A stretch of DNA of 64,000 bases from Pseudomonas muyukensis. Its GTDB lineage: Bacteria > Pseudomonadota > Gammaproteobacteria > Pseudomonadales > Pseudomonadaceae. Positions 1,662-5,113 of this stretch are shown piece by piece (positions within the stretch are counted from its first letter, which is position 1; the number at the start of each line of letters is the position of its first letter). The notes under the pieces were generated by a model, which searched no databases, was not told where the DNA came from, and saw only the letters and a list, made by a program, of their open reading frames with translations. The stretch spans positions 3,190,501 to 3,254,500 of the forward strand of contig NZ_CP077073.1 of the NCBI RefSeq assembly GCF_019139535.1, read 5' to 3'. The position numbers and the translations under genes are program-made.

Positions 1662-1691
1662 TTGACTTGCCAGCCGGGCCCAGGCTACTTT
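1662..1691 (+). promoter_or_regulatory. Possible sigma-70 promoter for the ilvA leader
   Basis: TTGACT (1662-1667) and TACTTT (1686-1691) are separated by 18 bases. Transcription from it would begin only a few bases before the leader ATG at 1700, so the leader peptide would be nearly leaderless. This is a pattern match only. Confidence 0.4.
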
Positions 1692-1699
1692 TCCACCCC

Positions 1700-1765
1700 A
1701 TGAACACACGCCTGCAGTGCCGCGCCCCAAGCATTATTACCGCCATTATCGGATTGGCGGGCTAG
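1700..1765 (+). CDS. Isoleucine-rich leader peptide of the ilvA attenuator
   Basis: A 21-codon reading frame, ATG to TAG, whose C-terminal half reads SIITAIIGLAG. Four of its codons are isoleucine (ATT 1733, ATT 1736, ATT 1745, ATC 1748), plus one threonine and one leucine. That is the end product and the substrate of the pathway whose first enzyme is encoded 82 bases downstream. Its last codons (GCG GGC TAG) overlap the segment that can pair with the terminator's left arm, exactly as in the classical ilv, leu and trp leaders. No good Shine-Dalgarno sequence is visible, so translation may be leaderless. It is too short for standard gene callers. Confidence 0.75.
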   Translation: MNTRLQCRAPSIITAIIGLAG

Positions 1766-1806
1766 CGCACACATGCACGAAACCCGCCCTGGAGGCGGGT
1801 TTTTTC
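1756..1806 (+). promoter_or_regulatory. Transcription attenuator of ilvA (antiterminator and terminator)
   Basis: GGCGGG at 1756-1761 can pair with CCCGCC at 1783-1788 (antiterminator). The same CCCGCC also pairs with GGCGGG at 1794-1799 (ACCCGCC/GGCGGGT, loop CTGGA), followed by a run of Ts at 1800-1805, which is an intrinsic terminator. The two structures exclude each other. A ribosome stalled on the Ile codons (1733-1750) leaves 1756-1761 free, so the antiterminator forms. A ribosome that reaches the stop codon (1763-1765) covers it, so the terminator forms. The pairing is visible in the sequence; the regulation is inferred from known branched-chain operons. Confidence 0.78.
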
Positions 1807-1847
1807 TCTCTGACTCCTGGGCCCTTGAAAACAACCAGGAGTCATCG

Positions 1848-3410
1848 ATGACCAGCCTCAGCCTTCCCTCGCGTACCCCCGTAACACCGCAACAACTGCT
1901 GTCCGAGCAGGTGCGGCGGATTCTCTCGGCGCCGGTGTACGACCTGGCCATCGAAACCCCGCTGCAAGGCGCCCCGGCGCTGTCGGCCAGCCTGGGCAAC
2001 CAGGTGCTGCTCAAGCGCGAGGACCTGCAACCGACCTTCTCCTTCAAGATCCGTGGTGCCTACACCCGGCTCTCGCGCCTGAGCCCCGCCCAGCGCGCCC
2101 GCGGCGTGATCACCGCCTCGGCCGGCAACCACGCCCAGGGCGTGGCCCTGGCCGCCGCGCACCTAGGGCTGAACGCCACCATCGTCATGCCCACCACCAC
2201 GCCCTCGCTCAAGGTCGAGGGCGTGCGCTCGCGGGGTGGCCAGGTCGTGCTGCATGGCGAGAGCTTCCCCCACGCCCTGGCCCACGCCCTGGCGTTGGCC
2301 GATAGCCAGGGGGCGACCTTCGTGCCGCCGTTCGACGACCCTGATGTGATCGCCGGCCAGGGTACGGTGGCCATGGAGATCCTGCGCCAGCACCCGGGCC
2401 GGCTGGACGCGATCTTCGTGCCGGTGGGCGGCGGCGGGTTGATCGCCGGCATCGCCGCCTACGTCAAGTACCTGCGCCCCGAGGTCAAGGTGATCGGTGT
2501 CGAGCCGCAGGACTCCAACTGCCTGCAGGCGGCCATGGCCGCTGGCGAGCGGGTGGTGCTGGCGCAGGTCGGCACCTTCGCCGACGGCGTGGCGGTGGCG
2601 CAGGTTGGCGCGCACTGTTTCGAGCTGTGCCGGCACTTCGTCGACGAGGTGGTGACGGTCAGCAGCGATGAGCTGTGCGCGGCGATCAAGGACATCTACG
2701 ACGATACCCGCTCGATCACCGAACCCTCCGGCGCCCTGGCCGTGGCCGGGATCAAGAAGTACGTGGCCCGCACAGGCGCCCAGGGGCAGACGCTGGTGGC
2801 CATCGACTCAGGCGCCAACGTCAACTTCGACCGCCTGCGCCATGTGGCTGAGCGCGCCGAGCTGGGCGAGCAGCGCGAAGCGGTGATCGCCGTGACCATC
2901 CCCGAATGCCCCGGCAGTTTCCGCGCCTTCTGCCTGGCGCTGGGCAAGCGCCAGATCACCGAGTTCAACTACCGCTACTACCCGGGCAGGGCGGCGCGCC
3001 TGTTCGTTGGCGTGCAGACCCACCCCCAGCACGACCCGCGTGAAGCGCTGCTGGCCAGCCTGGGCGCGCAGGGCTACCCGGTGCTCGACCTGACCGACAA
3101 CGAGCTGGCCAAGCTGCACGTGCGCCATACCGTGGGCGGGCACGCGGCGCCAGGGGCCAGCGAGCGGGTGCTGCGCTTCGAGTTTGCCGAGCGGCCCGGG
3201 GCCTTGCTGGGCTTTCTCGAACGCTTGGGCAAGCGCTGGAACATCAGCCTGTTCCACTACCGCAACCACGGCGCGGCGCAGGCGCGGGTGTTCGCCGGGC
3301 TGGAGGTGCCGGACGCGGAACTGGCCGGGTTGCCGCAGGCGCTGGAAGCGATGGGTTATCCGTATTGGGACGAGACGGATAACCCGGCGTATCGGTTGTT
3401 CATGGGGTAG
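1848..3410 (+). CDS. ilvA: Threonine ammonia-lyase, biosynthetic (threonine deaminase)
   Basis: Converts L-threonine to 2-oxobutanoate and ammonia, the first committed step to isoleucine. It is 520 residues from ATG 1848, the long allosteric form (E. coli IlvA is 514). The start is chosen because AGGAG lies seven bases upstream; an in-frame ATG at 1773 lies inside the attenuator hairpin region and would add 25 unlike residues. Residues 1-320 form the PLP fold: SFKIRGAY carries the Schiff-base lysine (K67), SAGNHAQG binds substrate and VGGGGLIAG binds the PLP phosphate. Residues from about 345 on hold two ACT-like Thr_dehydrat_C domains, which normally give isoleucine feedback inhibition. Expression is probably controlled by the attenuator at 1700-1806. 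Confidence 0.95.
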   Translation: MTSLSLPSRTPVTPQQLLSEQVRRILSAPVYDLAIETPLQGAPALSASLGNQVLLKREDLQPTFSFKIRGAYTRLSRLSPAQRARGVITASAGNHAQGVALAAAHLGLNATIVMPTTTPSLKVEGVRSRGGQVVLHGESFPHALAHALALADSQGATFVPPFDDPDVIAGQGTVAMEILRQHPGRLDAIFVPVGGGGLIAGIAAYVKYLRPEVKVIGVEPQDSNCLQAAMAAGERVVLAQVGTFADGVAVAQVGAHCFELCRHFVDEVVTVSSDELCAAIKDIYDDTRSITEPSGALAVAGIKKYVARTGAQGQTLVAIDSGANVNFDRLRHVAERAELGEQREAVIAVTIPECPGSFRAFCLALGKRQITEFNYRYYPGRAARLFVGVQTHPQHDPREALLASLGAQGYPVLDLTDNELAKLHVRHTVGGHAAPGASERVLRFEFAERPGALLGFLERLGKRWNISLFHYRNHGAAQARVFAGLEVPDAELAGLPQALEAMGYPYWDETDNPAYRLFMG

Positions 3411-3501: not shown

Positions 3502-4650
3502 ATGAGCAGCACGTTCTTCATCCCCGCCGTCAATATCATGGGCATCGACTGCCTGGAGGAGGCGATGGCCGCCATCGCCGGTTATGGCTTGCGCAAGGCG
3601 TTGATCGTCACCGACGCGGGCCTGGTCAAGGCCGGCGTGGTCGAGCGGATCGCCGGCATGCTGGCCATGCGCGATATCGACGCGCGGGTGTTCGACGGCG
3701 CCAAGCCCAACCCGAGCATCGCCAACGTCGAGGCAGGGCTGGCCATGCTGCGCCGCGAGGGCTGTGACTGCGTGGTGTCGCTGGGCGGCGGCTCGCCCCA
3801 CGATTGCGCCAAGGGCATCGCCTTGTGCGCGACCAACGGCGGGCATATCAGCGACTACGAGGGCGTCGACCGGTCGAGCAAGCCGCAGCTGCCGCTGATC
3901 GCGATCAACACCACCGCCGGCACTGCCAGCGAGATGACCCGCTTCTGCATCATCACCGACGAGGCGCGCCATGTGAAAATGGCCATCGTCGACCGCAACG
4001 TCACGCCGCTCCTGTCGGTCAACGACCCGGCGCTGATGGCCGGCATGCCCAAGGGCCTGACCGCGGCCACTGGCATGGATGCGCTGACCCATGCCATCGA
4101 GGCCTATGTCTCGACCGCCGCCACGCCGATCACCGATGCCTGCGCGCTCAAGGCCATCGGCCTGATCAACGACAACCTGCGCCAGGCGGTTGCCGACGGC
4201 GCCGACCTGCAGGCGCGGGAGAACATGGCCTATGCCCAGTTCCTCGCGGGGATGGCGTTCAACAATGCATCGCTTGGGTATGTGCATGCCATGGCCCACC
4301 AGCTGGGCGGCTACTACGACTTGCCCCATGGCGTGTGCAACGCGGTGTTGCTGCCCCATGTACAACGTTTCAATGCCAAGGTCAGTGCCGTGCGCTTGCG
4401 CGATGTGGCCAAGGCCATGGGCGTCAAGGTGTGCGGGCTGGATGCCGAGCAGGGCGCCGGGGCGGCGATTTCGGCCATCGAGCACCTGGCCGCGGCCATC
4501 GGTATCCCGGCCGGGCTGGCGGAGCTGGGGGCCAAGGTCGAGGACGTGCCGGTACTGGCGGCCAATGCGCTGAAGGATGCCTGTGGCCTGACCAATCCGC
4601 GGGTGGCCAGCCAGGTGGAGATCGAGGCGATCTTCAAGGCGGCGTTCTAG
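3502..4650 (+). CDS. yiaY: Iron-containing alcohol dehydrogenase (YiaY-like)
   Basis: A 382-residue group III metal-dependent NAD(P)H alcohol dehydrogenase. [11 protein letters not shown] (from residue 96) binds the dinucleotide. The iron ligands expected for this family are all present: D193 and H197 in [13 protein letters not shown]262 and H276 in [18 protein letters not shown], with the catalytic H266 between them. A good Shine-Dalgarno (GAGAGGG) precedes ATG 3502. It lies 91 bases after ilvA on the same strand. E. coli YiaY of similar length oxidises threonine and short alcohols, so a threonine or methanol/ethanol-type substrate is possible but not shown. Confidence 0.88.
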
Positions 4651-4701
4651 AACGGCGTGGTAAGTGGCTGGCGCCTACGGGCATTGCAGGTCGCAGACGG
4701 C

Positions 4702-5113
4702 GTAGGAGCCGGCCTTGCCGGCGAACACCGGCGTAGCCGGTGCCAGCCACCGCGTCGCCTGGTTCGCCAGCAAGGCTGGCGCCCACGGGCATTGCAGGCC
4801 GCAACCGCCGTAGGAGCCGGCTTGCCGGCGAACACCGGCGCAGCCGGTGCCAGCCACCGCGTCGCCTGGTTCGCCAGCAAGGCTGGCGCCCACGGGCATT
4901 GCAGGCCGCAACCGCCGTAGGAGCCGGCCTTGCCGGCGAACACCGGCGCAGCCGGTGCCAGCCGCCGCGTCGCCTGGTTCGCCAGCAAGGCTGGCGCCCA
5001 CGGGCATTGCAGGCCGCAACCGCCGTAGGAGCCGGCCTTGCCGGCGAACACCGGCGCAACCGGTGCCATCCACCGCGTCGCCGGGTTCGCCAGCAAGGCT
5101 GGCGCCTACGGGG
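4702..5113. repeat. Tandem array of four REP-pair units (period 107-108 bp)
   Basis: Four near-identical units begin with GTAGGAGCCGG at 4702, 4810, 4917 and 5025. Each contains a REP palindrome, a small CACCGG..CCGGTG hairpin, and an inverted REP (TTCGCCAGCAAGGCTGGCGCC), then a short tail GGGCATTGCAGGCCGCAACC. It fills the 488-base gap between two convergent genes (4651-5138). The open frames across it in several phases are products of the repeats and not genes. The same unit recurs at 55454-55951. Confidence 0.92.

Follow-up and report, generated by a model that had tools for sequence, protein, structure and literature searches.

Upstream of ilvA2, a threonine deaminase gene of Pseudomonas muyukensis, lies an element that we interpret as a ribosome-mediated transcription attenuator: it would sense isoleucine, by way of charged tRNA-Ile, and control a second, inducible threonine deaminase gene. 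We put the probability of this reading at roughly 90%. On the comparative evidence laid out below, what is new is a leaderless, paralogue-specific leader-peptide attenuator followed by a Shine-Dalgarno hairpin, hidden under the name of a small RNA. The element was analysed within a 64,000-nt stretch of the genome (the window), and its features are as follows.

1662..1667, + strand: -35 element TTGACT, read from the sequence; 161 of 185 distinct loci have TTGA 35-38 nt ahead of the ATG.
1686..1691, + strand: -10 element TACTTT (TAnnnT), from conserved positions in 67 loci with TTGA at -37.
1700..1765, + strand: leader peptide ORF, MNTRLQCRAPSIITAIIGLAG followed by a stop; its ATG is predicted at the transcript start or a few nt from it, with no Shine-Dalgarno.
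1733..1738, + strand: ATT-ATT (Ile), putative control codons, present in all three target classes (leader counts below; alignment A1).
1740..1745, + strand: segment 1, CCGCCA, partner of segment 2; at one pair both sides change, from G-C to A-U, in 13 of 101 rows.
1755..1761, + strand: segment 2, TGGCGGG, pairs with segment 1 or 3, from pair conservation in alignments.
1783..1788, + strand: segment 3, CCCGCC, antiterminator partner of segment 2 or left arm of the terminator; six 2:3 pairs in 101 of 101 rows.
1779..1806, + strand: intrinsic terminator, stem 1779-1788 / 1794-1803 plus T tract; the right arm is segment 4.
1730..1803, + strand: matches 74 of 74 positions of Rfam RF00624 ('Pseudomonas sRNA P9') with 88.8 bits (cut-off 43).
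1811..1844, + strand: hairpin of 10 pairs, TGACTCCTGG (1811-1820) / CCAGGAGTCA (1835-1844), covering the ilvA Shine-Dalgarno.
1837..1841, + strand: ilvA Shine-Dalgarno AGGAG, read from the sequence.
1848..3410, + strand: ilvA2, biosynthetic threonine ammonia-lyase of 520 aa with two C-terminal regulatory stretches, from profile matches.

Read directly from the sequence, the leader runs for 21 codons from the ATG at 1700 to a TAG stop at 1763-1765. Four Ile codons (ATT ATT ATT ATC, at 1733, 1736, 1745 and 1748) precede GGCGGG (1756-1761), which falls within the final leader codons with one base between it and the stop; the terminator and ilvA follow. This order had been noticed in an earlier reading made from the sequence alone (the sequence-only reading), and we confirm it. 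The combination of promoter, ATG and ATTATTA occurs once in the 64-kb window, against 0.01 times expected from shuffles.

We compared this leader with those at 172 loci scoring above the RF00624 cut-off, the window included; these are among the matches listed, not all matches. As leader ATG we took the one with the TTGA of a -35 element 35-38 nt upstream; in this way the promoter fixed it in 155 of the 172 listed loci, with 14 having no TTGA there and 3 missed by the pattern. At all 155 of these listed loci the promoter-placed ATG is in frame with the Ile codons, where one third would be expected; as P9 loci are related by descent, these are not independent trials. Adjacent Ile codons ('II') occur in 164 of 169 leaders among the matches listed and are absent in the other 5, and in 153 of the same 169 the stop begins 7 nt after the start of GGYGGG. 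The first two Ile codons are near-universal and the later Ile positions vary (IITAII, IITAIP, IITTIAP, IITTFT). The leader is thus a short ORF with codons for the end product, one of the hallmarks of an attenuator.

The wider set of 185 distinct loci includes 9 named loci, the window and 10 loci below the RF00624 cut-off. Locus extraction missed 12 of 199: L126, L231, L237 and L241, which were recovered by another scan, and L263-L270. Among 80 named IlvA loci of mixed paralogues, 9 have a P9-type leader (L031-L036, L045, L089 and L091), without a strict stem in L091. A distant metagenome-assembled genome (L100) has a stem and two Ile-containing frames, unlike P9, and five further loci (L074, L103, L107, L109 and L110) have an Ile-containing frame and no stem. 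In L201, L223, L224, L225 and L230, a one-base deletion just 5' of segment 2 shifts the frame of the leader C-terminus (WRAC/WRAS); the Ile codons and segment 2 are kept despite the frameshift.

The terminator stem has 10 pairs, contains both CCCGCC (1783-1788) and GGCGGG (1794-1799), and runs into the T tract. CCGCCA (1740-1745) can pair with TGGCGG (1755-1760), which completes a four-segment set with the alternatives 1:2, 2:3 and 3:4. Antiterminator and terminator had both been recognised in the sequence-only reading and stand; segment 1 and the Shine-Dalgarno hairpin had been missed. Folding of 1730-1806 gives 1:2 and 3:4 together, with a z of -3.5 and none of 200 shuffles folding as well.

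Pair conservation was assessed in two alignments: A1, containing 101 of 129 distinct cores, and A2, containing 25 chosen rows (16 from A1 and 9 distant ones from other families of the order, with L331 and L333 left out). In A1, 1:2 and 3:4 are paired in 98.5% of cells, with 24 double-sided changes compared with 3.2 in shuffles. Such changes within 1:2 fall at two pairs (13 and 5 cells), one 1:2 pair reading GC in 84 rows, AU in 13, GU in 3 and otherwise in 1. In the aligned sequences, covariation for 1:2 and 3:4 is clear.

The 2:3 antiterminator behaves differently. Its six positions are intact in all 101 rows of A1, with U-G in 17 rows at one pair, and a seventh pair beside them fails in 67 of the 101. 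Within the genus 2:3 is thus mostly invariant, and invariant pairs count neither for nor against pairing. In A2, one 2:3 pair reads CG in 9 rows, UG in 11, UA in 4 and otherwise in 1, and the matching 3:4 pair reads GC in 20, AU in 4 and otherwise in 1; in four rows, one base of segment 3 has changed along with both of its alternative partners. By the rule of the tool, A2 contains no double-sided change in 2:3, the U-G intermediate being the most frequent type. In A2, 39 of 500 shuffles reach the covariation score, which makes the 2:3 covariation suggestive but not decisive; after a slide of +3, 72% of cells are still paired. Taken as pairings, all three mutually exclusive alternatives are conserved, and they end in an intrinsic terminator 5' of the cognate biosynthetic gene. 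The attenuator was to be doubted, according to the sequence-only reading, if relatives had lost the frame or the alternating stems; both are kept, the frame in 155 of 155 loci and the six 2:3 pairs in every A1 row.

In the mechanism that we infer, the transcript would begin at the leader ATG or a few bases from it, and translation of the 21 codons would proceed without a Shine-Dalgarno. With isoleucine present, the ribosome would reach the stop at 1763 and cover segment 2 (GGCGGG, 1756-1761); segments 3 and 4 would therefore form the terminator, and the terminated RNA of about 105 nt would be Rfam's P9. With isoleucine short, the ribosome would stall on ATT-ATT (1733-1738) and cover segment 1, leaving 2 to pair with 3, so that no terminator would form and ilvA would be transcribed. 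With no ribosome, 1:2 and 3:4 would both form and transcription would stop. After read-through, the second hairpin would hold the ilvA Shine-Dalgarno. The proposal of an attenuator acting through Ile codons holds up, but probably only the first two of the four codons exert control. Footprint reasoning makes these two the likely control codons, because a ribosome stalled on the later two (1745-1750) would itself reach GGCGGG. We rejected the later two as control codons on this reasoning; they are also variable, and the near-universal first two codons fit the same choice.

The promoter of the window consists of TTGACT, an 18-nt spacer, TACTTT and 8 nt before the leader ATG, with TTGA at -38. Where TTGA is at -37 (67 loci), conservation is 98% for each of T -13, A -12 and T -8, and 97% for C -1. 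Shine-Dalgarno-like 4-mers occur upstream of the leader ATG in 3 of 185 loci, compared with 15, 19 and 23 in control stretches. All nine kinase-type loci from other families have TTGA 35-37 nt ahead of a candidate leader ATG, a spacing that was obtained for L328 and L330 by choosing between two ATGs and for L326 by eye. Promoter spacing that puts +1 at the ATG, together with the rarity of Shine-Dalgarno sequences, is what is expected of a leaderless mRNA. A leaderless leader peptide, with its predicted +1 at or within a few nt of the ATG, is thus supported, as is the sequence-only suggestion that the promoter places the leader ATG near the transcript start for translation without a Shine-Dalgarno. 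As the leader is widely conserved without a Shine-Dalgarno, leaderless initiation would be needed for its translation and with it for the entire sensor.

Alternatively, the attenuator may be real and transcription start farther upstream, giving the leader an ordinary 5' UTR. TTGA is absent at 35-38 nt in 24 of the 185 distinct loci, and a simple sigma-70 scan did not list the window promoter because its -10 element matches only 3 of 6 consensus bases. What makes that promoter look real is its conservation across loci, and we consider an upstream start unlikely given the fixed TAnnnT at -13 to -8 and C at -1, the scarcity of Shine-Dalgarno-like 4-mers, and a spacing that is still readable in all nine kinase-type loci of other families (two of them by choice of ATG).

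Apart from its leader, the element is already catalogued. In the P. muyukensis genome, RF00624 has exactly one match above the cut-off, with 26 weak others at no more than 22.5 bits. At E <=0.001, it matches 298 of 398 genomes of the genus (289 above the cut-off), 51 of 119 genomes of the family (48 above), 20 of 145 genomes of the order (6 above) and none of 14 control genomes; at E 10, matches appear in 13 of the 14 controls, above the cut-off in none. Seven loci with 28-35 bits (L263, L264 and L266-L270) had no leader by our script and were terminator-like only; we treated them as chance matches and excluded them. L265 (34 bits) was missed by the script and by eye has a leader-like frame before a kinase gene. 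One locus (L232, G007:C18) carries a tandem pair of P9 matches with a run of N between them, which may be an assembly artefact.

Rfam's structure line for this family gives the 1:2 hairpin and the terminator, the same as found here. However, the family is typed as 'Gene' and not as a leader, and its model starts just before the Ile codons; it contains no ATG, promoter, reading frame, 2:3 pairing or gene link, all of which are present in the leader described here. Among the papers listed from the open-licence PMC literature we found no link of Pseudomonas ilvA or P9 to a leader peptide, and an earlier mention of the neighbouring gene is possible. The terms 'ilv', 'isoleucine' and 'threonine' are absent, by term search, from the main text of a survey of premature terminators (PMC2965389). 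The novelty suggested from sequence alone therefore applies to the leader peptide, for which no description was found, but not to the element, which Rfam holds as sRNA P9.

The gene behind the element is an ilvA by its profile matches. Its product scores 978.5 bits with NF009130 and 773.8 bits with TIGR01124 (cut-off 411.3), and has the domains of IlvA, PALP and two Thr_dehydrat_C stretches. The regulated gene is not the only ilvA of this genome but a second one, the other full-length ilvA (G000:C1:929369-930883) being 74% identical. This link to a second copy extends across genomes. All 25 P9-negative genomes examined, out of 100, have exactly one long IlvA; 28 of 30 P9-positive genomes have two, and the other 2 have one only. 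Our upstream script found neither an Ile leader nor a terminator before the other ilvA of this genome or before 24 ilvA genes from P9-negative genomes, a scan that counted 25 of 26 loci (L313 being without the anchor motif). Applied to 156 P9 loci with the anchor motif, the same script found a leader in 144, and a leader and terminator in 131.

In 20 of the 30 P9-positive genomes, the match of the second IlvA extends no further than about residues 340-352. L016 and L018, which come from other genomes, have proteins of this kind that are 335 aa long and carry the catalytic domain alone. Judging from domain content, isoleucine feedback is probably lost where the second IlvA is without its C-terminal regulatory domain, and in these species the leader may replace feedback as the isoleucine control. 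IlvA2 of the window retains its regulatory domains. A use for the gene duplication is thereby suggested, with one ilvA free of the attenuator and one under isoleucine control, the controlled copy having no feedback domain in many species.

Rfam's filing of P9 as a gene would suit a free-standing, trans-acting small RNA whose position before ilvA is incidental, and terminated leaders can act in trans, as described for rnTrpL of Sinorhizobium in passages of PMC7298713. We think this improbable: conservation tracks the codons, the stop position and the pairing; a recognised gene (ilvA, YybH-like or kinase) follows on the same strand within 500 nt in 184 of the 185 distinct loci; and the P9-negative genomes examined have one long IlvA only, 25 of 25. 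Read as an attenuator, the catalogued sRNA P9 gets a concrete, testable function, as the terminated product of an isoleucine attenuator.

Equally slim are the chances that the leader senses threonine, or translation in general, and not isoleucine. Most leaders have a Thr codon, ACC, after the two Ile codons, and threonine is the substrate of IlvA. However, ACC belongs to segment 1, so pairing alone can explain its conservation, and it is lost in relatives with leaders reading IIIIIP or IIIIP, where the Ile codons are kept; in another relative, L326, Ile and Thr alternate (RITITP). A plain terminator beside a chance Ile-containing frame has a negligible probability and is refuted by a correct frame in 155 of 155 loci against one third expected (in related, not independent, loci) and by the covariation of 1:2 and 3:4, although GC-rich terminators are common in the genome, which has many weak matches to the 3' half of the RF00624 model.

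The Shine-Dalgarno hairpin is also conserved. In 163 distinct regions, 1304 of 1588 cells are paired (82.1%), compared with 34.7-49.3% when the arms are slid; four loci (L213, L215, L223 and L232) were dropped from this count. The third pair swaps between TA (67) and AT (26), with 62 of 158 cells unpaired there, and about half of the regions do not pair at the first and eighth positions. Folding predicts the hairpin in both states of the attenuator. We also considered whether segment 4 opens the ilvA Shine-Dalgarno upon antitermination. This was rejected after constrained folding of 173 loci, in which mean accessibility was 0.148 versus 0.143; accessibility differed by more than 0.1 between the two states in 10 of the 173. 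On these predictions, the hairpin looks independent of the attenuator state, and our best guess is that it acts as a general brake on ilvA translation in both.

In some genomes a second Ile-rich ORF (MIII...TR and a stop, or similar) lies between the terminator and ilvA. A short ORF begins at the Shine-Dalgarno in 25 of the 181 loci that have one; in 22 of the 25 it finishes with ATGA and so overlaps the ATG that follows, which in all 22 opens a frame with the IlvA motif KILTS or KILNS. Ile makes up 14.4% of these 22 peptides, compared with 3.0% of shuffled sequence and with 2.0% and 1.1% in the other frames, and residue 2 is Ile in 21 of them. The loci concerned are L002-L015, L026, L028, L045, L089, L162, L175, L179 and L221, with P. 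congelans (L045) and P. viridiflava (L089) as named examples. The window has no second Ile-rich ORF.

P9-type leaders are not confined to ilvA. The first recognised gene within 500 nt of the leader in the 185 distinct loci is ilvA in 153, a YybH/SnoaL-like gene in 26, an AAA_33 kinase gene in 5 and none in 1, so that ilvA is not the first recognised gene in 32. The YybH-like protein, found at L116, L118, L119, L127, L130, L132, L139, L143, L149-L160, L253, L254, L256 and L260-L262, matches PDB 2gxf (yybH) with E 8e-38. Gene order at L271 and L280 is leader, YybH-like gene, ilvA, and at L272 leader, YybH-like gene, AAA_33 kinase gene. At L278, the YybH-like gene after the leader is split, with a 326-aa ORF in the gap. 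The AAA_33 kinase that follows the leader in Pseudomonas (L251, L255, L257, L258 and L259) has only a weak match to a homoserine kinase model (26.8 bits, cut-off 197). In other families of Pseudomonadales, the leader (e.g. MKLNLTQKTARIIIIIP) precedes a different P-loop kinase (L321-L328 and L330), whose best NCBIfam match, PRK08118, scores 88.6 bits, below its cut-off of 215. Two threonine-deaminase-like genes of other families (L331 and L333) have different Ile-rich frames upstream (MNRLLSAQIIMIMHTKRLLVD and MYRVNSSNIMMIIRTGNRLVG) as well as terminators; neither has TTGA at 35-38 nt.

A tentative wider reading, to which we give slightly less than even odds, is that P9-type elements mark an unrecognised isoleucine-starvation regulon of Pseudomonadales, made up of leaderless Ile-leader attenuators. 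Besides a spare threonine deaminase (without a feedback domain in many species, the leader replacing allostery), it would include P-loop kinases from two or more families and a YybH-like protein, and one lineage would add a translational isoleucine sensor in the form of the second Ile-rich ORF with its ATGA overlap with ilvA. If this is true, threonine and isoleucine supply involves these kinases and YybH-like proteins in ways yet to be discovered; the presence of the leader before such genes, which are uncharacterised, suggests additional participants in isoleucine starvation.

The choice among 1:2, 2:3 and 3:4 pairings is the textbook scheme of attenuation, and ribosome-mediated attenuation occurs within the genus at trpE and trpGDC of Pseudomonas putida, where it senses tryptophan, unlike the isoleucine leader found here. 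The ilv leaders of E. coli have been described, and the enteric ilv attenuators are classical examples, according to parts of PMC6123439. The leaders of the enteric ilv, leu and thr operons (such as E. coli ilvGMEDA and ilvBN) follow the same principle, with a codon-rich leader and a choice between terminator and antiterminator. In contrast to these operon leaders, the element described here precedes a single gene, encodes a leaderless peptide of 21 codons and has a paralogue-specific target. It does not belong to the enteric Rfam families, scoring 20.7 bits against a cut-off of 55 with Thr_leader (RF00506) and 17.9 against 50 with Leu_leader (RF00512). A parallel for the start site is trpL of Sinorhizobium meliloti, whose leader RNA begins at the ATG of the leader peptide, as stated in passages of PMC7298713; the trpL/rnTrpL system shares this start and differs in amino acid, lineage and gene.

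The gene adjoining ilvA2 (3502-4650) matches L-threonine dehydrogenase (PRK09860, 633.3 bits against a cut-off of 581). As this match is above the cut-off, two threonine-linked genes lie side by side. Behind this gene, at 4666-5112 of the window, is a tandem array of 4.1 copies of a 108-bp unit, with a 95% match between copies.
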